From the NCBI RefSeq assembly GCF_002797895.1, contig NZ_PGES01000001.1, positions 4,712,001-4,776,000 of the forward strand: a DNA stretch of 64,000 bases, given 5' to 3'. A program made the translations under genes and the position numbers. Below, in pieces: positions 13,770 through 24,240 of this stretch; within the stretch, counting starts at the first letter, position 1; each line of letters opens with the position of its first letter. The stretch comes from Janthinobacterium sp. 67 (lineage in GTDB: Bacteria; Pseudomonadota; Gammaproteobacteria; Burkholderiales; Burkholderiaceae_D). The notes below the pieces were generated by a model, which saw only the letters and a program-made list of their open reading frames with translations, was not told the origin of the DNA and did not search any database.

Positions 13770-13800
13770 CCGGGGTCGGACCCTCAGGGTCCGACCCCGG
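13770..13800. repeat. Perfect 15-bp inverted repeat (GGGGTCGGACCC family)
   Basis: Arms CCGGGGTCGGACCCT (13770-13784) and AGGGTCCGACCCCGG (13786-13800) are perfect reverse complements around a single C. It lies 20 bp after the mnmC stop. As RNA it would form a very stable hairpin, but no T-run follows it. A related GGGGTCAGACCC core occurs at 24178, so it looks like a member of a dispersed palindromic family rather than a private operator. Confidence 0.85.
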
Positions 13801-13969
13801 CGTCTGCTCTTGGGTTAACAATCAAGAGATGGCGCCAACGCGCGTGAACGTTTGACCCCATATACGTTTTTCAGCTTTCCAAACTCTTTTTAATTTGTTT
13901 TCCGAACAACATAAGTTCGCTACAGTGGACTCGTGCTGGTTTTTGACGATGGAATAAAGAGGTGGAAAG
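13801..13969 (+). promoter_or_regulatory. Upstream region of the sulfur/encapsulin cluster
   Basis: This stretch is AT-rich between mnmC and the rhodanese gene. It contains a small inverted repeat, CGAAC-N7-GTTCG, at 13903-13919, and a purine-rich AAAGAGGTGGAAAG stretch just before the ATG at 13970 that supplies the ribosome-binding site. The inverted repeat is a plausible operator for the XRE regulator three genes downstream, but the same motif is not found before the encapsulin gene, so this is speculative. Confidence 0.35.
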
Positions 13970-14467
13970 ATGGCTGCTGCAGAACTGATTTTCGATCCCC
14001 GCGCCGCGCACGGCGAGGCGGCTTTTGACGAAGTGCTCAATCTCGCGCGCACCCAGGCGCAGGCACAGGGCTTGCCGTATGCGGGCATCGTCAGCGCGCA
14101 GGATGCGTGGCAGCTGGTGCAGGCCGGCAAAGCCGTGCTGGTCGACGTGCGCACGAATGAAGAGCGCACTTTCGTCGGCTACGTGCCCGCCTCGCTGCAC
14201 GTGGCGTGGGCCACCGGCACGGCCATGAACCGCAATCCCCGCTTTGTGCGCGAACTGGAAGCGAAGGTGGGCGGCAAGGATGCCGTCGTGGTGCTGCTGT
14301 GCCGCAGCGGCAAGCGCTCGGCCGCGGCTGCCGAAGCGGCGGCCAAGGCCGGTTTCACGCACGTCTTCAATATCGCGCAAGGCTTCGAGGGTGACCTCGA
14401 CGAGCAGCAGCAGCGCGGCCACAGCGGTGGCTGGCGCTGGCATGCGCTGCCCTGGCTGCAAGATTAA
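13970..14467 (+). CDS. Rhodanese-like sulfurtransferase
   Basis: The 165-residue protein has one rhodanese domain (about 40-155): ILVDVRTNEERTF-type element (VLVDVRTNEERTFVGYVPAS), substrate loop VVVLLCRSGKRSA with active cysteine C111, and a C-terminal NIAQGFEGDLDEQQQRG. Rhodaneses carry persulfide sulfur from donors such as desulfurases to acceptors. It is the first gene of a compact run (18 bp to serine acetyltransferase) leading to the encapsulin genes. This makes it a natural acceptor or carrier for sulfur released by the encapsulated desulfurase; that partnership is inferred from gene order. Confidence 0.9.
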   Translation: MAAAELIFDPRAAHGEAAFDEVLNLARTQAQAQGLPYAGIVSAQDAWQLVQAGKAVLVDVRTNEERTFVGYVPASLHVAWATGTAMNRNPRFVRELEAKVGGKDAVVVLLCRSGKRSAAAAEAAAKAGFTHVFNIAQGFEGDLDEQQQRGHSGGWRWHALPWLQD

Positions 14468-14485
14468 TTCTCTTCCGGGACCACC

Positions 14486-15478
14486 ATGAACCAGCGAGCC
14501 ATTCCCCCTGCCTCCCTTGCCGCGCAGCCGCAATGGGAGCTGCACCAGATCGTCGATGAATTGCGCGCCGTGCGCGAGCAGTGGCGCGAAGGACTGGCCA
14601 GCAACCAGGAGTGCGGCGCGCGCGAATTCCCGTCGCGCCAGCATTTGCACGACATCATCAAAGCCCTGTGTGCGGCCCTGTTCCCCATGCGCCTGGGCCC
14701 CCTCGACCTGCAGCAGGAGAGCGAGGATTTCTTCGTCGGCCACACGCTCGACACGACCCTGACGGGCTTGCACGAACAGGTGCGGCGCGAACTCAGTTAC
14801 CACGCGCGCCAGCACGGCTTGCAGCAGACGGTGCCCATCGAACAGCAGGCGCTGGCCATCGTGCAGCGCTTCGCCCGCGCGCTGCCGCGCATCCGCGCCC
14901 AGCTCGACACGGACGTGGCGGCCGCCTTCCATGGCGACCCGGCCGCGCACAGCGTCGATGAAGTGCTGCTGTGCTATCCGGGCATCCTGGCCGTCATCCA
15001 TTACCGCTTGGCGCACACCCTGTATGCACTGGGCGCGCCGCTGGTGGCGCGCATCATCGCCGAAGTGGCCCATTCGCAGACGGGCATCGACATCCACCCG
15101 GGCGCCATCATCGGCAGCAGTTTTTTCATCGACCATGGCACGGGCGTGGTGATCGGCGAGACGGCCATCATCGGCGAAAGGGTGCGCATTTACCAGGCCG
15201 TCACGCTGGGCGCCAAGCGCTTTCCCGCCGGCTTTGACGGCGTGCTGAAAAAGGGCCTGGCGCGCCACCCCATCGTGCAGGACGACGTGGTCATTTATGC
15301 GGGCGCGACGATTCTCGGGCGCGTGACCATCGGCCAGGGTTCCGTCATCGGCGGCAATGTCTGGCTGACCCGCAGCGTGGCGCCCGGCAGCCATGTCACG
15401 CAAGCGCACAACCAGCAGGAAGCACAGGAGTTGCCGGAGTCGCCGGCGCCACAGCCCGCTTTTGCCCACCACCCATGA
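14486..15478 (+). CDS. cysE: Serine O-acetyltransferase (EpsC-type)
   Basis: The 330-residue protein has an alpha-helical N-terminal half (about 1-185) and a left-handed beta-helix built of hexapeptide repeats (about 190-310; IDIHPGAIIGSSFFIDHGTG, VVIGETAIIGERVRIYQAVTLGA, IYAGATILGRVTIGQGSVIGGNVW). The catalytic histidines are in DIHPGA and DHGTG. It makes O-acetylserine, the direct precursor of cysteine. The long N-terminal part places it with the EpsC/SAT group often found beside cysteine desulfurase or encapsulin 2A genes. It lies 18 bp after the rhodanese gene and 7 bp before the XRE regulator, in one operon. Confidence 0.92.
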   Translation: MNQRAIPPASLAAQPQWELHQIVDELRAVREQWREGLASNQECGAREFPSRQHLHDIIKALCAALFPMRLGPLDLQQESEDFFVGHTLDTTLTGLHEQVRRELSYHARQHGLQQTVPIEQQALAIVQRFARALPRIRAQLDTDVAAAFHGDPAAHSVDEVLLCYPGILAVIHYRLAHTLYALGAPLVARIIAEVAHSQTGIDIHPGAIIGSSFFIDHGTGVVIGETAIIGERVRIYQAVTLGAKRFPAGFDGVLKKGLARHPIVQDDVVIYAGATILGRVTIGQGSVIGGNVWLTRSVAPGSHVTQAHNQQEAQELPESPAPQPAFAHHP

Positions 15479-15485
15479 GGACAGC

Positions 15486-15710
15486 ATGTTGATCAAACAG
15501 TTTGGACTGGCCGTGCGCCAGTTGCGCGAAGGGCATGGCTGGTCGCAGGAGCGGCTGGCCGAAGCGGCCGACTTGAACCGCTCGTTCATCGGCGAAATCG
15601 AACGGGGCGCCGCCACGCCGTCGCTGCTGACGGTGGAAAAACTGGCCGTCGCGCTGGGCATCGGCCTGGCCGGATTGATGGCCCGCTGCGAACCGGAGCT
15701 GGTGGATTAG
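15486..15710 (+). CDS. XRE-family helix-turn-helix regulator
   Basis: This 74-residue protein is almost only a Cro/C1-type helix-turn-helix: FGLAVRQLREGHGWSQERLAEAADLNRSFIGEIERGAATPSLLTVEKLAVALGI. No sensor domain is present. GAGG just upstream supports ATG 15486; a longer open frame reaching back into cysE is not needed. It lies between the serine acetyltransferase gene and the encapsulin gene and is the obvious candidate to control the encapsulin promoter 30-80 bp downstream. Confidence 0.88.
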   Translation: MLIKQFGLAVRQLREGHGWSQERLAEAADLNRSFIGEIERGAATPSLLTVEKLAVALGIGLAGLMARCEPELVD

Positions 15711-15735
15711 CGCCAGCACTGATGGCGATAGCATG

Positions 15736-15764
15736 TTGAGTAAAAGAGAGGGGCGCTCGATACT
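15736..15764 (+). promoter_or_regulatory. Candidate sigma-70 promoter of the encapsulin gene
   Basis: TTGAGT (15736-15741) and GATACT (15759-15764) are 17 bp apart; each matches the consensus at four of six positions. The gap between the XRE gene and the encapsulin ATG is 103 bp, large for this otherwise tight cluster, which fits an internal promoter. CAGGAG at 15803-15808 is the ribosome-binding site for the ATG at 15814. Confidence 0.4.
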
Positions 15765-15813
15765 TTATTCGTTTTTCAGATAAGCATATTCACTTTTCTC
15801 ATCAGGAGTAGTC

Positions 15814-16743
15814 ATGACAGTAGCAACAGAGAGCCAGTTCGCGCTGGGCGATAACGCCGCGCGCCAGCTGGCCAATGCAAGCAAGAGCGTCCCCCAGTTA
15901 TCCACGATCACGCCGCGCTGGCTCGTGCACCTGCTGCAATGGCTGCCCGTGGAAGCGGGTATCTACCGCCTCAACCGCGTAAAAAATCCGAAGGACGTGC
16001 GCGTGGCCTGCTCGCAGCGCGACGAGTCGGAACTGCCGCAAACCTTCGTCGACTACGACGAGCAGCCGCGCGAATATTTTCTCAACGCCGTCAGCACGGT
16101 GCTCGACGTGCACACGCGCGTGTCGGACCTGTACAGCAGCCCGCACGACCAGATCAAGGAGCAGCTGCGCCTGACCATCGAGACGATCAAGGAGCGCCAG
16201 GAAAGCGAGTTGATCAACAATCCCGATTACGGCCTGCTGGCCAGCGTGCACGATGACCAGCGCATCTTTACCCTGACGGGCGCGCCTACGCCGGACGACC
16301 TCGACGAACTGCTGACGAAAGTGTGGAAGGAGCCGGGCTTTTTCCTCGCCCATCCGCTGGCCATTGCCGCCTTTGGCCGCGAATGCACGCGCCGTGGCGT
16401 GCCGCCGCCGACGGTCAGCCTGTTCGGTTCTCAGTTCCTCACGTGGCGCGGCGTGCCGCTGGTGCCGTCCGACAAACTGCCGATCGAAGACGGCAAGACG
16501 AAGATCATTCTGCTGCGCGCGGGCGAGCAGCGCCAGGGCGTGATCGGCCTGTTCCAGCCTGGCCTGGCGGGCGAGCAAAGCCCCGGCCTGTCCGTGCGCT
16601 TCATGGGCATCAACCGCCACGCGATTTCGTCCTATCTGATTTCGCTGTATTGCTCGCTGGCCGTGCTGACCGACGATGCGCTGGCCGTACTGGAAGACGT
16701 GGAGATCGGTAAATACCATGACTACCCAGACACCTACAAGTGA
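15814..16743 (+). CDS. Family 2A encapsulin nanocompartment shell protein (SrpI-like)
   Basis: The 309-residue protein has the HK97-type encapsulin family 2 pattern: an N-arm with ALGDNAARQLANASKSVPQLSTITPRWL, E-loop region VKNPKDVRVACSQRDESELP, DVHTRVSDLYSSPHDQIKEQLRLTIE, and a C-terminal RFMGINRHAISSYLISLYCSLAVLTDDALAVLEDVEIG. No cyclic-nucleotide-binding domain is inserted, which separates family 2A from 2B. Such shells assemble into roughly 25-nm compartments that enclose a cysteine desulfurase. The last 26 bp overlap the start of that desulfurase gene, coupling shell and cargo translation. Confidence 0.93.
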   Translation: MTVATESQFALGDNAARQLANASKSVPQLSTITPRWLVHLLQWLPVEAGIYRLNRVKNPKDVRVACSQRDESELPQTFVDYDEQPREYFLNAVSTVLDVHTRVSDLYSSPHDQIKEQLRLTIETIKERQESELINNPDYGLLASVHDDQRIFTLTGAPTPDDLDELLTKVWKEPGFFLAHPLAIAAFGRECTRRGVPPPTVSLFGSQFLTWRGVPLVPSDKLPIEDGKTKIILLRAGEQRQGVIGLFQPGLAGEQSPGLSVRFMGINRHAISSYLISLYCSLAVLTDDALAVLEDVEIGKYHDYPDTYK

Positions 16744-18502
16744 TGGCGCGGCGGGCTTGCCTGCCGTCCCGTTCTTGCCCGACGAAGCGACCTTGAACCG
16801 CCTGGCGGGCGAGTTTTTTGCGCGTCTGCCCGGGTTAGATAAATCGCCCAGCCTCGGCGGTTCCGGCAGCGTGCTCGATGCGGCGCCCCGCTATGCGAAC
16901 CGCCCGCCGCCGCAGCCCGGCCCTTCCTTCGCCGCCATCGCTCCCGGCGTGGCGACGGCGCAAGTGCCGCCCGTGACGGCGCCGCCGGAGGCACCGATTG
17001 CGCCGGCGCCGGCTTCCGTGCCGACGCCGCGTGCATCAAGCATTGGTGTGCCGTCACCTTATTATTTTGTCGGCGGCGCGCATGGCTATCCGGCGTCGGA
17101 CGGCAAGCTCGATGGCCTGGCGCAGCAGGGGCTGGGGCAGGCGGCGCCCGATGATCTGCGAGGGCTGTTTGCCACGCCGCAGCGTTCGCCCGCGCGCCAG
17201 CTGCCCGTATCGCCGGCCAACAGCCAGCCCGCGTTCTATTTCCAGACCGAGCTGCCAGCGCGGCAGCAAGGGCAAACGCCGGCGCCATTCGACGTGCACG
17301 CCGTGCGGCGCGACTTTCCCGTGCTGGCCGAACGGGTCAACGGCAAGCCGCTGGCCTGGTTCGACAATGCGGCCACCACGCACAAGCCGCAATCGGTGAT
17401 CGACCGCGTGTCGTATTTCTATGCGCACGAGAATTCGAACATCCACCGCGCGGCGCACGCATTGGCGGCGCGCGCCAGCGATGCCTATGAAGCGGCGCGC
17501 GCCAAGGTGGCCAATTTCCTCGGCGCCGCCTCGGCCAATGAAATCATTTTCGTGCGTGGCGCCACGGAAGGCATCAACCTGATCGCCAACACGTTCGGGC
17601 GCAAGTACATCGGCAGCGGCGACGAGATCATCGTCTCGCAGCTCGAGCACCACGCCAATATCGTGCCGTGGCAGCAGCTGGCGGCGGAGAAGGGCGCGAC
17701 CTTGCGCGTGATTCCCGTCGACGACAGCGGGCAGATCATCCTCGATGAATTCCGCAAGCTGCTCAACGGGCGCACGAAACTGGTGTCCGTGACGCAGGTG
17801 TCGAATGCATTGGGTACCGTGACGCCCGTGGCGCAGATCATCGCGCTGGCGCATGCGGCCGGCGTGCGCGTGCTGGTCGACGGCGCGCAAGCCGTGTCGC
17901 ATCTGCGCGTGGACGTGCAGGCGCTCGGTGCCGATTTCTATGTCTTCTCGGGCCACAAGGTATTTGGCCCGACGGGCATCGGCGCCGTGTATGGCAAGGC
18001 CGACTTGCTCGAGCAACTGCCGCCATGGCAGGGCGGCGGCAACATGATCGCCGACGTCACGTTCGAGCGCACCGTCTACCAGGGCGTGCCGAACCGTTTC
18101 GAGGCGGGCACGGGCAATATCGCCGATGCCGTGGGGCTCGGTGCGGCCATCGATTACGTGCAGCGCATCGGCCTGGAAAACATCGCCGCCTACGAGCACG
18201 CGCTGCTCGAATATGCGACGCACCAGCTGCAGGCGATTCCCGGCGTGCGCCTGATCGGCACGGCGGTTGAAAAGGCGAGCGTGGCGTCGTTCGTGCTGGC
18301 CGGTTACGAGCCGGCGGAAGTGGGGCGCGCCCTGAACGACGAGGGCATCGCTGTGCGCTCGGGCCACCATTGCGCCCAGCCGATCCTGCGCCGTTTCGGC
18401 GTGGAAGCGACCGTGCGTCCCTCGTTCGCCTTCTACAACACGTACGAGGAAATCGACCGCATGATCGTCGTGGTCAAGCGCCTGGCGGGCGCGCGCCGCT
18501 GA
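16718..18502 (+). CDS. Encapsulin cargo cysteine desulfurase (SufS-type, with long disordered N-terminal domain)
   Basis: The 594-residue protein has two parts. Residues 1-190 are rich in Pro, Ala, Gly and Gln and contain short conserved islands LPDEATLNRLAGEFF (20-34), SPYYFVGGAHGYP (113-125) and PAFYFQ (171-176); this is the cargo-loading region known from family 2A systems. Residues 191-594 are a SufS/CsdA-type PLP enzyme with PLP lysine K414 (FSGHKVFGP) and catalytic C552 (RSGHHCAQP). The 138-residue spacing equals that between K226 and C364 of E. coli SufS. It converts cysteine to alanine and persulfide. Start ATG 16718 overlaps the shell gene. Confidence 0.93.
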   Translation: MTTQTPTSDGAAGLPAVPFLPDEATLNRLAGEFFARLPGLDKSPSLGGSGSVLDAAPRYANRPPPQPGPSFAAIAPGVATAQVPPVTAPPEAPIAPAPASVPTPRASSIGVPSPYYFVGGAHGYPASDGKLDGLAQQGLGQAAPDDLRGLFATPQRSPARQLPVSPANSQPAFYFQTELPARQQGQTPAPFDVHAVRRDFPVLAERVNGKPLAWFDNAATTHKPQSVIDRVSYFYAHENSNIHRAAHALAARASDAYEAARAKVANFLGAASANEIIFVRGATEGINLIANTFGRKYIGSGDEIIVSQLEHHANIVPWQQLAAEKGATLRVIPVDDSGQIILDEFRKLLNGRTKLVSVTQVSNALGTVTPVAQIIALAHAAGVRVLVDGAQAVSHLRVDVQALGADFYVFSGHKVFGPTGIGAVYGKADLLEQLPPWQGGGNMIADVTFERTVYQGVPNRFEAGTGNIADAVGLGAAIDYVQRIGLENIAAYEHALLEYATHQLQAIPGVRLIGTAVEKASVASFVLAGYEPAEVGRALNDEGIAVRSGHHCAQPILRRFGVEATVRPSFAFYNTYEEIDRMIVVVKRLAGARR

Positions 18503-18523
18503 CCGTGCCAGTTTGTCAGCCTG

Positions 18524-18553
18524 ATGCCGCCCCTGCGCCAGCGGGGGCGGCAT
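18524..18553 (+). terminator. Terminator-like hairpin after the encapsulin operon
   Basis: ATGCCGCCCCTGC and GCGGGGGCGGCAT form a 13-bp stem (one G-T pair) around a four-base loop, 20 bp after the desulfurase stop. The following bases (TGTTGCATCATG) are only partly T-rich, so termination may be incomplete or Rho-assisted. It separates the encapsulin genes from the histidine kinase. Confidence 0.55.
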
Positions 18554-18609
18554 TGTTGCATCATGTCACGGACTTTGCGCGCGGCTGGCTGGCGTCCGCA
18601 GGCTGGCGG

Positions 18610-18659: not shown

Positions 18660-19379
18660 GTGGAAGATCAACACAGCTCGCCCGAGCTTTTCCTGTTCCT
18701 GGCGTCGACCGTGCACGACATGAAAAACTCGATCAGCGTGGTCAGCGGTACTTTGGAGTCGCTGCTGGCGGCCGAGCAGGCGAAAACAGCTCCTCAGGCC
18801 GATCCCGCCTATCTGCAGATGGCGCAGATGCTGTACCAGACCAAGCGCCTCAACGATAACCTGATCCAGCTGCTGGCCCTGTACAAGGAAGTGGGCAAGC
18901 CCGGCTACCCCTTTGACGTGCAGCCGCAGCTGGTCAGCCAGGTGATCGACCAGGTGGTGGACCAGGAAAAGATCCTGCTGGCCTCGAAAGGCATCCGGCT
19001 CGAGACGGCTTGTGCGCCGGAACTGATCTGGACCCTCGATGAAGACCTGGTCATCGGCGTGCTTGCGCATGCGATCAACAACGCCATCCGCTACACGAAG
19101 GACACGATACGCCTGTCCGTGCGCGAGCACGGCGGCATGCTCGAGCTGCGCGTGGAAGACAATGGCGACGGCTACACGCAGGCCTTGCTCGACGCGGGCA
19201 GCGCGGCCATGGACGGCATGGCGGCGGGCGTGAACTTTTCCACCAACAGCACGGGACTGGGCCTGTATTTTTCCAGCGAAGTGGCAAAGATGCACAAGCA
19301 CCGGGGCAGCAGCGGCAGCATCGCCCTGGAAAACGGCGGCGCCCTGGGCGGCGGCTGTTTCATCCTGCGCCTGCCCTGA
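18660..19379 (+). CDS. Soluble sensor histidine kinase
   Basis: The 239-residue protein has no transmembrane segment. A dimerisation/phosphoacceptor helix carries H19 in ASTVHDMKNSISVVSG. The HATPase domain has N-box LAHAINNAIRYT, G1 DNGDGY and G2 TGLGLYFS followed by a C-terminal GGCFILRLP. Start GTG 18660 is supported by AAGGAG 8 bases upstream. It lacks an input domain, so it probably receives its signal through another protein. It lies 11 bp before a response regulator, its likely partner. Confidence 0.88.
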   Translation: MEDQHSSPELFLFLASTVHDMKNSISVVSGTLESLLAAEQAKTAPQADPAYLQMAQMLYQTKRLNDNLIQLLALYKEVGKPGYPFDVQPQLVSQVIDQVVDQEKILLASKGIRLETACAPELIWTLDEDLVIGVLAHAINNAIRYTKDTIRLSVREHGGMLELRVEDNGDGYTQALLDAGSAAMDGMAAGVNFSTNSTGLGLYFSSEVAKMHKHRGSSGSIALENGGALGGGCFILRLP

Positions 19380-19390
19380 ACGAGGATGCC

Positions 19391-21121
19391 ATGACGACAG
19401 ACAGCCACGCCACCGCCGCCGAAGCGGGCAGCACCGACTGGGCCGACAAGCATTATCTGCTGGTCGACGATTTCATCGGCATCCGCATCCTGCTGCGCGA
19501 ATCGCTGCGCAACCTGGGCGCGCGCCATATCGACCAGGCGGCCAGCGGCGGCGAAGCCATGAAGCTGCTGGCCAAGACGCGCTACGACGTGGTGCTGTGC
19601 GATTACAACCTGGGCGAAGGCAAGAATGGCCAGCAAGTGCTGGAAGAGACGCGCGTGCGCAACCTGACGGCGCCGTCCAGCGTATGGCTGATGGTGTCGG
19701 CCGAGAAAAGCGTGGAATCCGTGATGGGCGCGGCCGAGCACCAGCCCGACGCCTACCTGATCAAGCCGATCACGGAAGGCGTGCTGCTGACGCGCCTGAA
19801 CCGCGTGTGGCACAAGAAGCAGGTGTTCCGCGAAATCGACCAGGCCTGCATGGAAAAAGACTACTTGCGTGCGGCCAAATTGTGCGACGCGCAGATCGAG
19901 CTCAACAAGCTGCACGAGCTGGAACTGCTGCGCATGAAAGCCACTTTGCTGCTGAAAAGCGGCGAGCCGGAAAAGGCCCGCGCCGTGTACGAAAAAGTGC
20001 TGGCCGACCGCGATTACAGCTGGGCGAGGGCGGGCCTGGGCAAGATCCGCATGAATAACGGCGAACACGAGGCGGCGCGGCAGATCTTCCAGGGCGTGAT
20101 CGTCGAAAACAAGTACTACATCGACGCCTACGACCAGATGGCCGTCGCCTACCAGCTGATGGGCCAGCACGAGGAAGCGTGCGGCGTGCTGGAAAAGGCG
20201 GCGCGCCTGTCGCCCAATTCCGTGCCGCGCCAGCGCAACCTGGGATTGGCGGCCCTGAAGGTCGGCAATGTCAGCATGGCGGAAAAAGCGTTTCGCAAGT
20301 GTATTTCCATCGGCGAGTTTTCCGTCATGAAGACGCCGGACGCTTACCTGGGCCTGGCGCGCGTGTGCGGCCTCAAAAAGGATGCCAAGGAGGCGCTGCA
20401 ATGGCTGCTGCTGGCGCAGCGCGAATTCTCGCCCGAGCAGATCGGGCTGCGCGCGAAGATCACGGAAGGCATGGTGCACCACGAAACGGGCGACTACCGG
20501 CGTGCGCGCAAGTGCGGCGACGAACTCGAAGCCATGCTGCTTGACGACCCGGCGCGGCCCGAGAAAAGCATTTGCATGGAACTGGCGACCCTGCTGTTCG
20601 CAGTCGGCGTCAAGGATGCGCCGGCCGGCCTGCTGTGCTACGTGGTCAAGAACAACCACGACAACCAGGTGGTGCAGGACGAAGTGCAAAAGATATTCGA
20701 CAAGGCGAAGATGGGCGACGAGGGCACCAGCCTGATCATCGCTTCGCGCAAGGAAGCGTCGGACCTGATGAACAAAGGCGTGCTGCTGTGGAAGACGGAC
20801 AAGCTCAACGAAGCGGTGGCCTGGATGCGCACGGCGCGCGAAAAGCTGCCGAACAACCTGCGCATCCTGTTCAACTCCGCGCAAATCATCGTGTCCTTCC
20901 TGGAACAGCGGGGCTACCAGGCGGAATTGGCGGCCGAGGCCATGGAAGTGTTGTTGTATGTGGACAAAATTGCACCGGGGCAGCAGCGCTTCGCGCAATT
21001 GATGGAGCAGCTGGTGCAACTGACGCCGCCGCCCGGGCCGGAAGAGGCCGTCGAGACGCCGGAAAAAACGCCGCCGGCAGCGGAAAAAGGGGGAAAAGCC
21101 GTGCGTGAGCGTGCCGGATGA
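19391..21121 (+). CDS. Response regulator with C-terminal TPR repeats
   Basis: The 576-residue protein begins with a receiver domain (about 20-140; acidic pair D26/D27, phospho-acceptor D71 in VVLCDYNLGEGKNG, K125 in YLIKPI). About 350 residues of TPR-like helical repeats follow (ALGKIRMNNGEHEAARQIF-type, AYDQMAVAYQLMGQHEEACGVLEKAARLSPNS, NLGLAALKVGNVSMAEKAFRKC). There is no DNA-binding or enzymatic output domain, so it probably acts by protein contacts. The C-terminal tail is Pro/Glu/Lys-rich. It is cotranscribed with the soluble kinase 11 bp upstream. Similar REC-TPR proteins occur in motility and stress signalling, but its target is unknown. Confidence 0.87.
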   Translation: MTTDSHATAAEAGSTDWADKHYLLVDDFIGIRILLRESLRNLGARHIDQAASGGEAMKLLAKTRYDVVLCDYNLGEGKNGQQVLEETRVRNLTAPSSVWLMVSAEKSVESVMGAAEHQPDAYLIKPITEGVLLTRLNRVWHKKQVFREIDQACMEKDYLRAAKLCDAQIELNKLHELELLRMKATLLLKSGEPEKARAVYEKVLADRDYSWARAGLGKIRMNNGEHEAARQIFQGVIVENKYYIDAYDQMAVAYQLMGQHEEACGVLEKAARLSPNSVPRQRNLGLAALKVGNVSMAEKAFRKCISIGEFSVMKTPDAYLGLARVCGLKKDAKEALQWLLLAQREFSPEQIGLRAKITEGMVHHETGDYRRARKCGDELEAMLLDDPARPEKSICMELATLLFAVGVKDAPAGLLCYVVKNNHDNQVVQDEVQKIFDKAKMGDEGTSLIIASRKEASDLMNKGVLLWKTDKLNEAVAWMRTAREKLPNNLRILFNSAQIIVSFLEQRGYQAELAAEAMEVLLYVDKIAPGQQRFAQLMEQLVQLTPPPGPEEAVETPEKTPPAAEKGGKAVRERAG

Positions 21122-24177: not shown

Positions 24178-24240
24178 GGGGTCAGACCCGCCGGGGGGAG
24201 GTGCCCAATGGGCGCATCCCGATTCCAAAGGAACTGACCC
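24178..24240. repeat. Degenerate GGGGTCAGACCC-type palindromic element
   Basis: GGGGTCAGACCC (24178-24189) and an inverted CTGACCC (24233-24239) bracket a GC-rich spacer in the gap between the DUF3108 gene and the condensin-like operon. The core differs at one base from the GGGGTCGGACCC core at 13771. This suggests a dispersed repeat family. No other feature is seen in the 24161-24417 gap apart from weak promoter-like AT-rich stretches near 24340. Confidence 0.5.

Follow-up and report, generated by a model that had tools for sequence, protein, structure and literature searches.

How the building of sulfur encapsulins is regulated is poorly known, and an operon of Janthinobacterium sp. 67 raises the question of what sets the time at which such a compartment is made. 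Within the window (the whole 64,000-nucleotide stretch analysed, positions 4,712,001 to 4,776,000 of contig NZ_PGES01000001.1, here numbered from its first letter), five plus-strand open reading frames (ORFs) form a single run (13970-18502). From the ORF list and profile searches, they encode a rhodanese, a serine O-acetyltransferase (SAT), a small XRE regulator, a family 2A encapsulin shell and a SufS-type cysteine desulfurase cargo, the same five genes as a sequence-only reading of this DNA had listed. On balance, we favour the view that this is a family 2A sulfur-type encapsulin operon with a built-in XRE switch that would activate shell and cargo; our confidence goes no further than that because the sign of the regulation is read from the position of the XRE site alone. 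The operon type itself was already known; what is new is the predicted DNA target for XRE, a conserved element in the gap between the XRE and shell genes. The question becomes testable with a predicted regulator and its predicted operator, the latter having just one exact copy in the genome.

The element was first recognised by comparing 48 XRE-shell gaps, which share the same block across genera. Its consensus, TTGATGGCTATAGCATGTTGA, overlaps the -35 hexamer of a predicted shell promoter, and GGCGATAGC is the block of the shell-side element. We then relied on a survey of 160 loci, reduced to 144 distinct ones by dropping 16 duplicates; the sample comprises the best 80 of 565 matches and 80 loci hand-picked from 134 shell-bearing genomes, with most Janthinobacterium omitted, and leans to Burkholderiales. 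Allowing at most 4 mismatches, the 16-mer core of the element occurs in 75 of the 79 loci with XRE, in none of the 65 without it, and in 8 of 720 shuffles (these and the shuffles used below, 595 for the second site and 1240 for the box, preserve single-base composition only). Aligning 42 representatives that share less than 90% identity in the shell gene shows conservation from position -5 to +15 (TTGatGGCTATAGCatGTTGA); the sequence 3' of this block is unconserved, and a -10-like GAcAcT follows. In 64 of the 75 sites, 17 nt separate TTGAnn from xAxAxT (an 18-nt spacing exists in 6), and in 70 of the 75 the element starts 77-101 bp upstream of the shell gene. The same 42 representatives give the consensus GGCTATAGC, a dyad centred on TATA, the first T of which is a G in 13 of them and likewise in the window. 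If transcription begins seven bases downstream of the -10, the centre of the dyad is at about -42.5.

The exact 16-mer pattern has one copy in the genome, at the operon. Three further places differ from it by one base, as compared with eight places with at most one mismatch for the reversed pattern used as control, and the 64-kb window holds three other places at 3 mismatches, which is about chance level. Among 30 genomes (matched by hand between lists, as were those of the larger comparison below), the exact pattern stands at the operon in 13 of the 17 that have XRE as well as a shell (an extra copy is present in one of the 13); it was found in none of the eight genomes with a shell and no XRE and in none of the four shell-less genomes of the genus. 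A shell-plus-cargo tree (133 rows) has 14 changes in XRE presence and 16 in the element. It offers nine supported independent pairs that differ in XRE; on average, the element goes with XRE in 8.7 of these (p 0.004-0.008). For the tree tests, XRE-less rows were scored as lacking the element without rescanning, in agreement with the scan at up to 4 mismatches, which found none there. One XRE-less locus (L049) has a single 5-mismatch site, decayed in appearance.

The regulator that accompanies the element scores 53.8 bits against HTH_3 (helix-turn-helix). The XRE proteins before the shell form one orthologous family of about 74 residues, present in 79 of the 144 distinct loci and scoring 89-129 bits against their own profile; within the genome, the operon XRE scores 148.8 bits and the next best XRE 39.1. 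Among 294 genomes of the same family, 62 carry an orthologue (at least 56 bits), 61 of them together with a shell. Seven loci (L047, L048, L051, L053, L054, L056 and L176, from Zoogloea and others) comprise rhodanese, XRE, shell and cargo with no SAT found nearby, and hence XRE goes with the shell, not with SAT. Two recognition-helix positions are Gly and Arg (as in LNRSYxGEIERG) in all 75 XREs with an element, and Ser and Cys (LNRSYISEIECG) in three of the four without one. In one locus (L159), the orthologue is duplicated in tandem before the shell, with an element copy near each gene.

The nearest solved relatives by sequence are the restriction-modification controller (C) proteins C.BclI (40.8 bits) and C.AhdI (40.0 bits), which are also the top two Foldseek matches of a structure model with a predicted local distance difference test (pLDDT) of 93.7; by Z score, ClgR and a further XRE protein tie with them, to within 1. 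Like C.BclI, C.AhdI and C.Esp1396I, XRE is a single five-helix domain of about 75 residues, and its predicted operator dyad is centred between the A and T of TATA in most relatives. The consulted parts of PMC4041747 describe exactly this centring for controller proteins, and those of PMC4824078 describe contact with region 4 of sigma-70 via SQE, as in lambda CI, with activation passing to repression as the dose rises. WSQE, nearly invariant across the XRE orthologue family, supports the idea of a sigma-70 contact but does not decide it. Unlike the C systems, however, the operon has no restriction or methylase gene, a single operator per promoter, and an XRE-linked shell promoter downstream of the regulator gene. 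Since no restriction-modification gene is present, we do not class XRE as a C protein, although it may work like one.

Is the regulator also wired to its own promoter? Of 119 loci, 53 have a TTWATTSGTT-like box before the rhodanese gene and 49 combine it with a TA...T hexamer after a 21-nt spacer; this promoter region is conserved across the aligned Janthinobacterium upstream regions. The box occurs in 19 of 40 XRE representatives, 7 of 22 XRE-less ones and 1 of 1240 shuffles, and TTAATTTGTT looks like the site of an activator other than XRE. We also scanned the region upstream of the rhodanese with the left part of the element, scored in bits. Sites of at least 12 bits occur in 25 of 78 XRE loci, as compared with 1 of 41 others (L095) and 0.34% of 595 shuffles. 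At 14 bits or more, the XRE loci hold 21 rhodanese-side sites, 70 shell sites and 7 elsewhere in 983 kb, and the XRE-less loci one rhodanese-side site and 10 elsewhere in 744 kb. The rhodanese-side copies, near TTGGTGGCTATAGCCACCAA, are fuller palindromes, which points to a full operator whose right half would give way to the -35 at the shell promoter. Box, hexamer and operator could be located together in 14 loci; the operator centre falls between +2 and +19 in 10 of these and at -87 in the other 4.

We therefore read the locus through the following steps, each of them conditional. A promoter before the rhodanese would drive rhodanese, SAT and XRE; XRE would bind the element, at about -42.5 on the separate promoter of the XRE-shell gap, contact RNA polymerase at the overlapping -35 and thereby turn on shell and cargo, as its position and its controller-protein relatives suggest. 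The 26-bp overlap of shell and cargo genes would couple their translation. In about a third of the XRE-bearing relatives, the window not being one of them, an XRE site at the rhodanese promoter would limit XRE's own production. As for the products, literature on relatives suggests that the shell would enclose the desulfurase, that the desulfurase would take sulfur from cysteine and that the sulfur would be kept in the shell; SAT would supply more O-acetylserine for making cysteine, and sulfane sulfur is probably carried to the compartment or away from it by the rhodanese. A wider proposal, to which we give somewhat less than an even chance, is that Betaproteobacteria and some relatives domesticated a controller-protein-like switch of the restriction and phage class for the control of an encapsulin: shell and desulfurase would be held back until rhodanese, SAT and the switch had built up, then sharply turned on, the switch's own synthesis being capped in some lineages. 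If this is true, one small DNA-binding protein sets when the sulfur compartment is built. The predicted XRE/element pair offers a means of inducing the compartment, and it suggests that a regulator class of restriction systems and phages was recruited to run a phage-derived shell.

Several observations weigh against this activating switch and have to be set beside it. On a shell-only tree, only four supported pairs remain, all agreeing (p 0.125). XRE and the element are neighbours, and joint loss of adjoining DNA could give part of their co-occurrence. Four XRE loci have no element; one of them (L102) nevertheless keeps Gly and Arg in the recognition helix, and the three Ser/Cys proteins are sibling sequences which may reflect a single event. 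The SQE motif is widespread in XRE proteins. The rhodanese promoter of the window has no operator, its best score lying below zero, and a generic promoter scan lists neither the shell nor the rhodanese promoter. Repression, too, can be exerted from a site at the -35. Finally, a genome of the genus Janthinobacterium (G201, locus L227) has kept SAT and XRE after losing rhodanese, shell, cargo and element; the exact pattern occurs once in that genome, away from the SAT-XRE remnant.

Some of these points bear on the idea that the element is the site of some other factor or simply part of the promoter, with XRE acting elsewhere or being a passenger. The adjacency of gene and element, an operator role deduced from sequence, and the retention of XRE in G201 would all fit it, but a passenger does not readily account for the complete absence of the element from the 65 XRE-less loci, for a rhodanese-side copy that also tracks XRE, or for the two recognition-helix residues being changed in three of the four element-less XRE loci, and we regard it as improbable. 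The other reading accepts the operator and reverses its sign: XRE would repress the shell promoter by covering the -35, and a signal or a partner would lift the block. Many XRE proteins are repressors, the element does overlap the shell -35, and controller proteins repress at higher dose (in the consulted part of PMC4824078). Against repression stand a 74-residue protein with no sensor domain, two hexamers that both deviate from consensus, as would be expected at an activator-dependent promoter, and a dyad centre upstream of the -35, in the class II activator position. At PRM, lambda CI activates from a site near -42 touching the -35, while its other sites lie at repressing positions; XRE resembles it in having a predicted site near -42 at the -35 and, in relatives, other sites at repressing positions, and is unlike it in having no second domain and no phage genes in the operon. 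We consider repression doubtful, though clearly likelier than the passenger, and retain activation by XRE as the preferred reading.

By sequence, shell and cargo both fall in family 2A. The shell scores 543.1 bits against NF041162 (encap_f2a; cut-off 380) and 355.8 bits against PF19307; the solved shell 8t6r aligns to its residues 6-309 (597.3 bits) and the solved SrpI 6x8m/6x8t to residues 7-304 (510.4 bits), 6X8T being termed a T1 family 2A encapsulin in a passage of PMC8346489. No cyclic-nucleotide-binding domain, the family 2B feature, was found in the shell, for which Pfam gives PF19307 only, and the best stretch of the family 2B model covers just model positions 210-449 of 450. An AlphaFold2 model of the shell built from eight close relatives had a pLDDT of 31.7, too low for comparison with the HK97-type fold. 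The 6.4-Mb genome has one match to the 2A shell model, and the shell of Janthinobacterium sp. FT68W is 100% identical to that of the window. The cargo scores 883.6 bits against NF041166, the 2A desulfurase cargo model (cut-off 800), and 557.2 bits against sufS (cut-off 475.1), and its N-terminal LNRLAGEFFA and VPSPYYFVGG are near forms of two SrpI-cargo motifs published in PMC8049743, as far as the consulted part goes. A family 2A shell with a desulfurase cargo, as first proposed, is thus upheld by NCBI's curated 2A cut-offs for both proteins; their 26-bp gene overlap is confirmed by the ORF coordinates. An in-frame cargo ATG lies exactly 26 bp before the shell end in 96 of 141 cargo-bearing loci, 14 bp before it in 18 and at neither place in 27; the 26-bp overlap is therefore not a chance of this genome.

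The survey of gene neighbourhoods that the sequence-only reading had suggested was run on the 134 loci with enough flank. Cargo was present in 133, SAT in 120, rhodanese in 115, XRE in 75 and cysteine synthase (CysK) in 15; the commonest sets were rhodanese-SAT-XRE-cargo (55), rhodanese-SAT-cargo (39), rhodanese-CysK-SAT-XRE-cargo (12), SAT-cargo (11) and rhodanese-XRE-cargo (7). The link of rhodanese and SAT to the 2A shell is thus seen again but is not new: the available passages of PMC8346489 already report that, of the accessory genes in 2A desulfurase operons, these two are the most enriched, and propose the co-regulated rhodanese as a sulfur acceptor. The window operon shares both accessory genes with the operons surveyed there, but those passages name no regulator or promoter element. 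It likewise resembles the SrpI/CyD system of Synechococcus elongatus, described in the consulted part of PMC8049743, in shell family, cargo family, the two N-terminal cargo motifs and the link to a cysteine-metabolism gene. For that cyanobacterial system, the same source reports that the cargo is loaded, that it is more active inside the shell and that sulfur starvation brings up-regulation; the title of a published reference ties the system to sulfur starvation and CysR. The window operon differs in its linked XRE, which has a conserved promoter element of its own. Our literature search found no link of XRE to encapsulins, with co-mention only in unconnected passages; an HTH family may yet appear in the neighbour tables of PMC8049743.

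What the compartment does with sulfur admits a second reading. It could be a relay and not a store, with persulfide sulfur of the desulfurase passing through the shell to the co-encoded rhodanese and feeding chosen pathways. The frequency of rhodanese near the shell favours this, as do the rhodanese tail, nearly invariant in the compared representatives, and the acceptor role proposed in the passages of PMC8346489; 19 of the 134 loci, however, show no rhodanese near the shell. The main storage study is reportedly a Sci. Adv. paper on an elemental-sulfur 2A encapsulin system. Storage is reported for a relative, 2A desulfurase systems being cited as sulfur stores in the parts of PMC10960027 and PMC12407261 that were available, and a relay thus seems to us rather unlikely. 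The rhodanese scores 54.9 bits against PF00581 (cut-off 22.2) and 207.5 bits against its best solved relative, 8w14. Its C-terminal tail GWRxHxLPWxQD (14432-14467), from which L098 alone departs, is a possible docking site.

The idea that the module makes cysteine was borne out in part: SAT is present and its product is O-acetylserine, but the window operon has no cysteine synthase gene. The CysK-bearing loci, where the synthase sits between rhodanese and SAT in those whose frames were read, support a cysteine-making module; in the window, the cysteine synthase step must come from elsewhere. The SAT scores 155.2 bits against the EpsC model, over its cut-off of 150, and 162.9 against the cysE model, under the cut-off of 210.65, with 3f1x as best solved relative (263.1 bits). 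Two further SATs are encoded in the genome, one scoring over the cysE cut-off and one under, and hence the operon SAT is not the sole one. A GxGI-type tail recalls the CysK-binding end of CysE; such tails end the SATs of L098, L100, L165, L186 and L221, four of which have CysK in the locus. We rejected the C-terminal Ile as a sign of CysK docking: the tail is found in just 4 of 10 compared CysK-bearing representatives, and the window SAT ends in AHHP.

Features of the operon and its flanks (positions in the window)
Feature	Position	Strand	Basis
Predicted promoter of rhodanese-SAT-XRE: box TTAATTTGTT (13890-13899), 21 nt, TACAGT (13921-13926)	13890-13926	+	conservation
Rhodanese (sulfurtransferase), active loop CRSGKRS	13970-14467	+	PF00581; best solved relative 8w14
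Serine O-acetyltransferase, EpsC-like long form	14486-15478	+	NCBIfam EpsC over cut-off; 3f1x
XRE regulator, 74 aa, single helix-turn-helix domain	15486-15710	+	HTH_3; C.BclI/C.AhdI relatives; model
Conserved element, predicted XRE operator (CTGATGGCGATAGCATGTTGA)	15719-15739	+	conservation; co-occurrence with XRE
Predicted shell -35, TTGAGT, overlapping the element	15736-15741	+	17-nt spacing to -10 in 64/75 sites
Predicted shell -10, GATACT	15759-15764	+	alignment of relatives and spacing
Family 2A encapsulin shell, 309 aa	15814-16743	+	NF041162 over cut-off; solved shells 8t6r, 6x8m
Overlap of the shell and cargo genes, 26 bp	16718-16743	+	ORF coordinates; available in 96/141 loci
Cysteine desulfurase cargo, long N-terminal region	16718-18502	+	NF041166 and sufS models; N-terminal motifs
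GC-rich hairpin 3' of cargo, terminator-like, weak T tail	18526-18551	+	fold of 18503-18560

The description of the genes as one tight run holds for most junctions and fails at the XRE-shell junction, a gap of 103 bp (15711-15813); as this gap holds the predicted promoter, the five genes need not form one transcription unit. Directly 3' of the shell -10, a partial dyad TTATTCGTTTTTCAGATAA (15765-15783) has related CTTAT..ATAAG stretches at the same place in several relatives and is possibly the site of a second regulator. Control of the CysB/SsuR type was considered and dropped as unproven: TTATTCGTTTTTCAGATAA occurs in the genome once exactly, at the operon, and once with 2 mismatches, and a search of cysI and related stretches, a small part of the sulfur genes, gave no ATTCGTT box.

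At the 3' end, the stretch 18503-18560 folds at -33.8 kcal/mol (z -3.57), and the terminator scan did not list the hairpin within it. An Rfam scan gave one sub-threshold match only, within the shell gene (17.6 bits, gathering score 40). Downstream on the same strand (18660-21121) lie genes for a HATPase-domain protein and then a response regulator with TPR repeats. The repeat GGGGTCNGACCC has 3 matches in the 64-kb window, where 0.01 are expected: an inverted pair with a 14-bp stem 5' of the operon (13770-13800) and one copy at 24178-24189. Similar GGGGTCAGACCC runs stand upstream of the operon in other Janthinobacterium loci.

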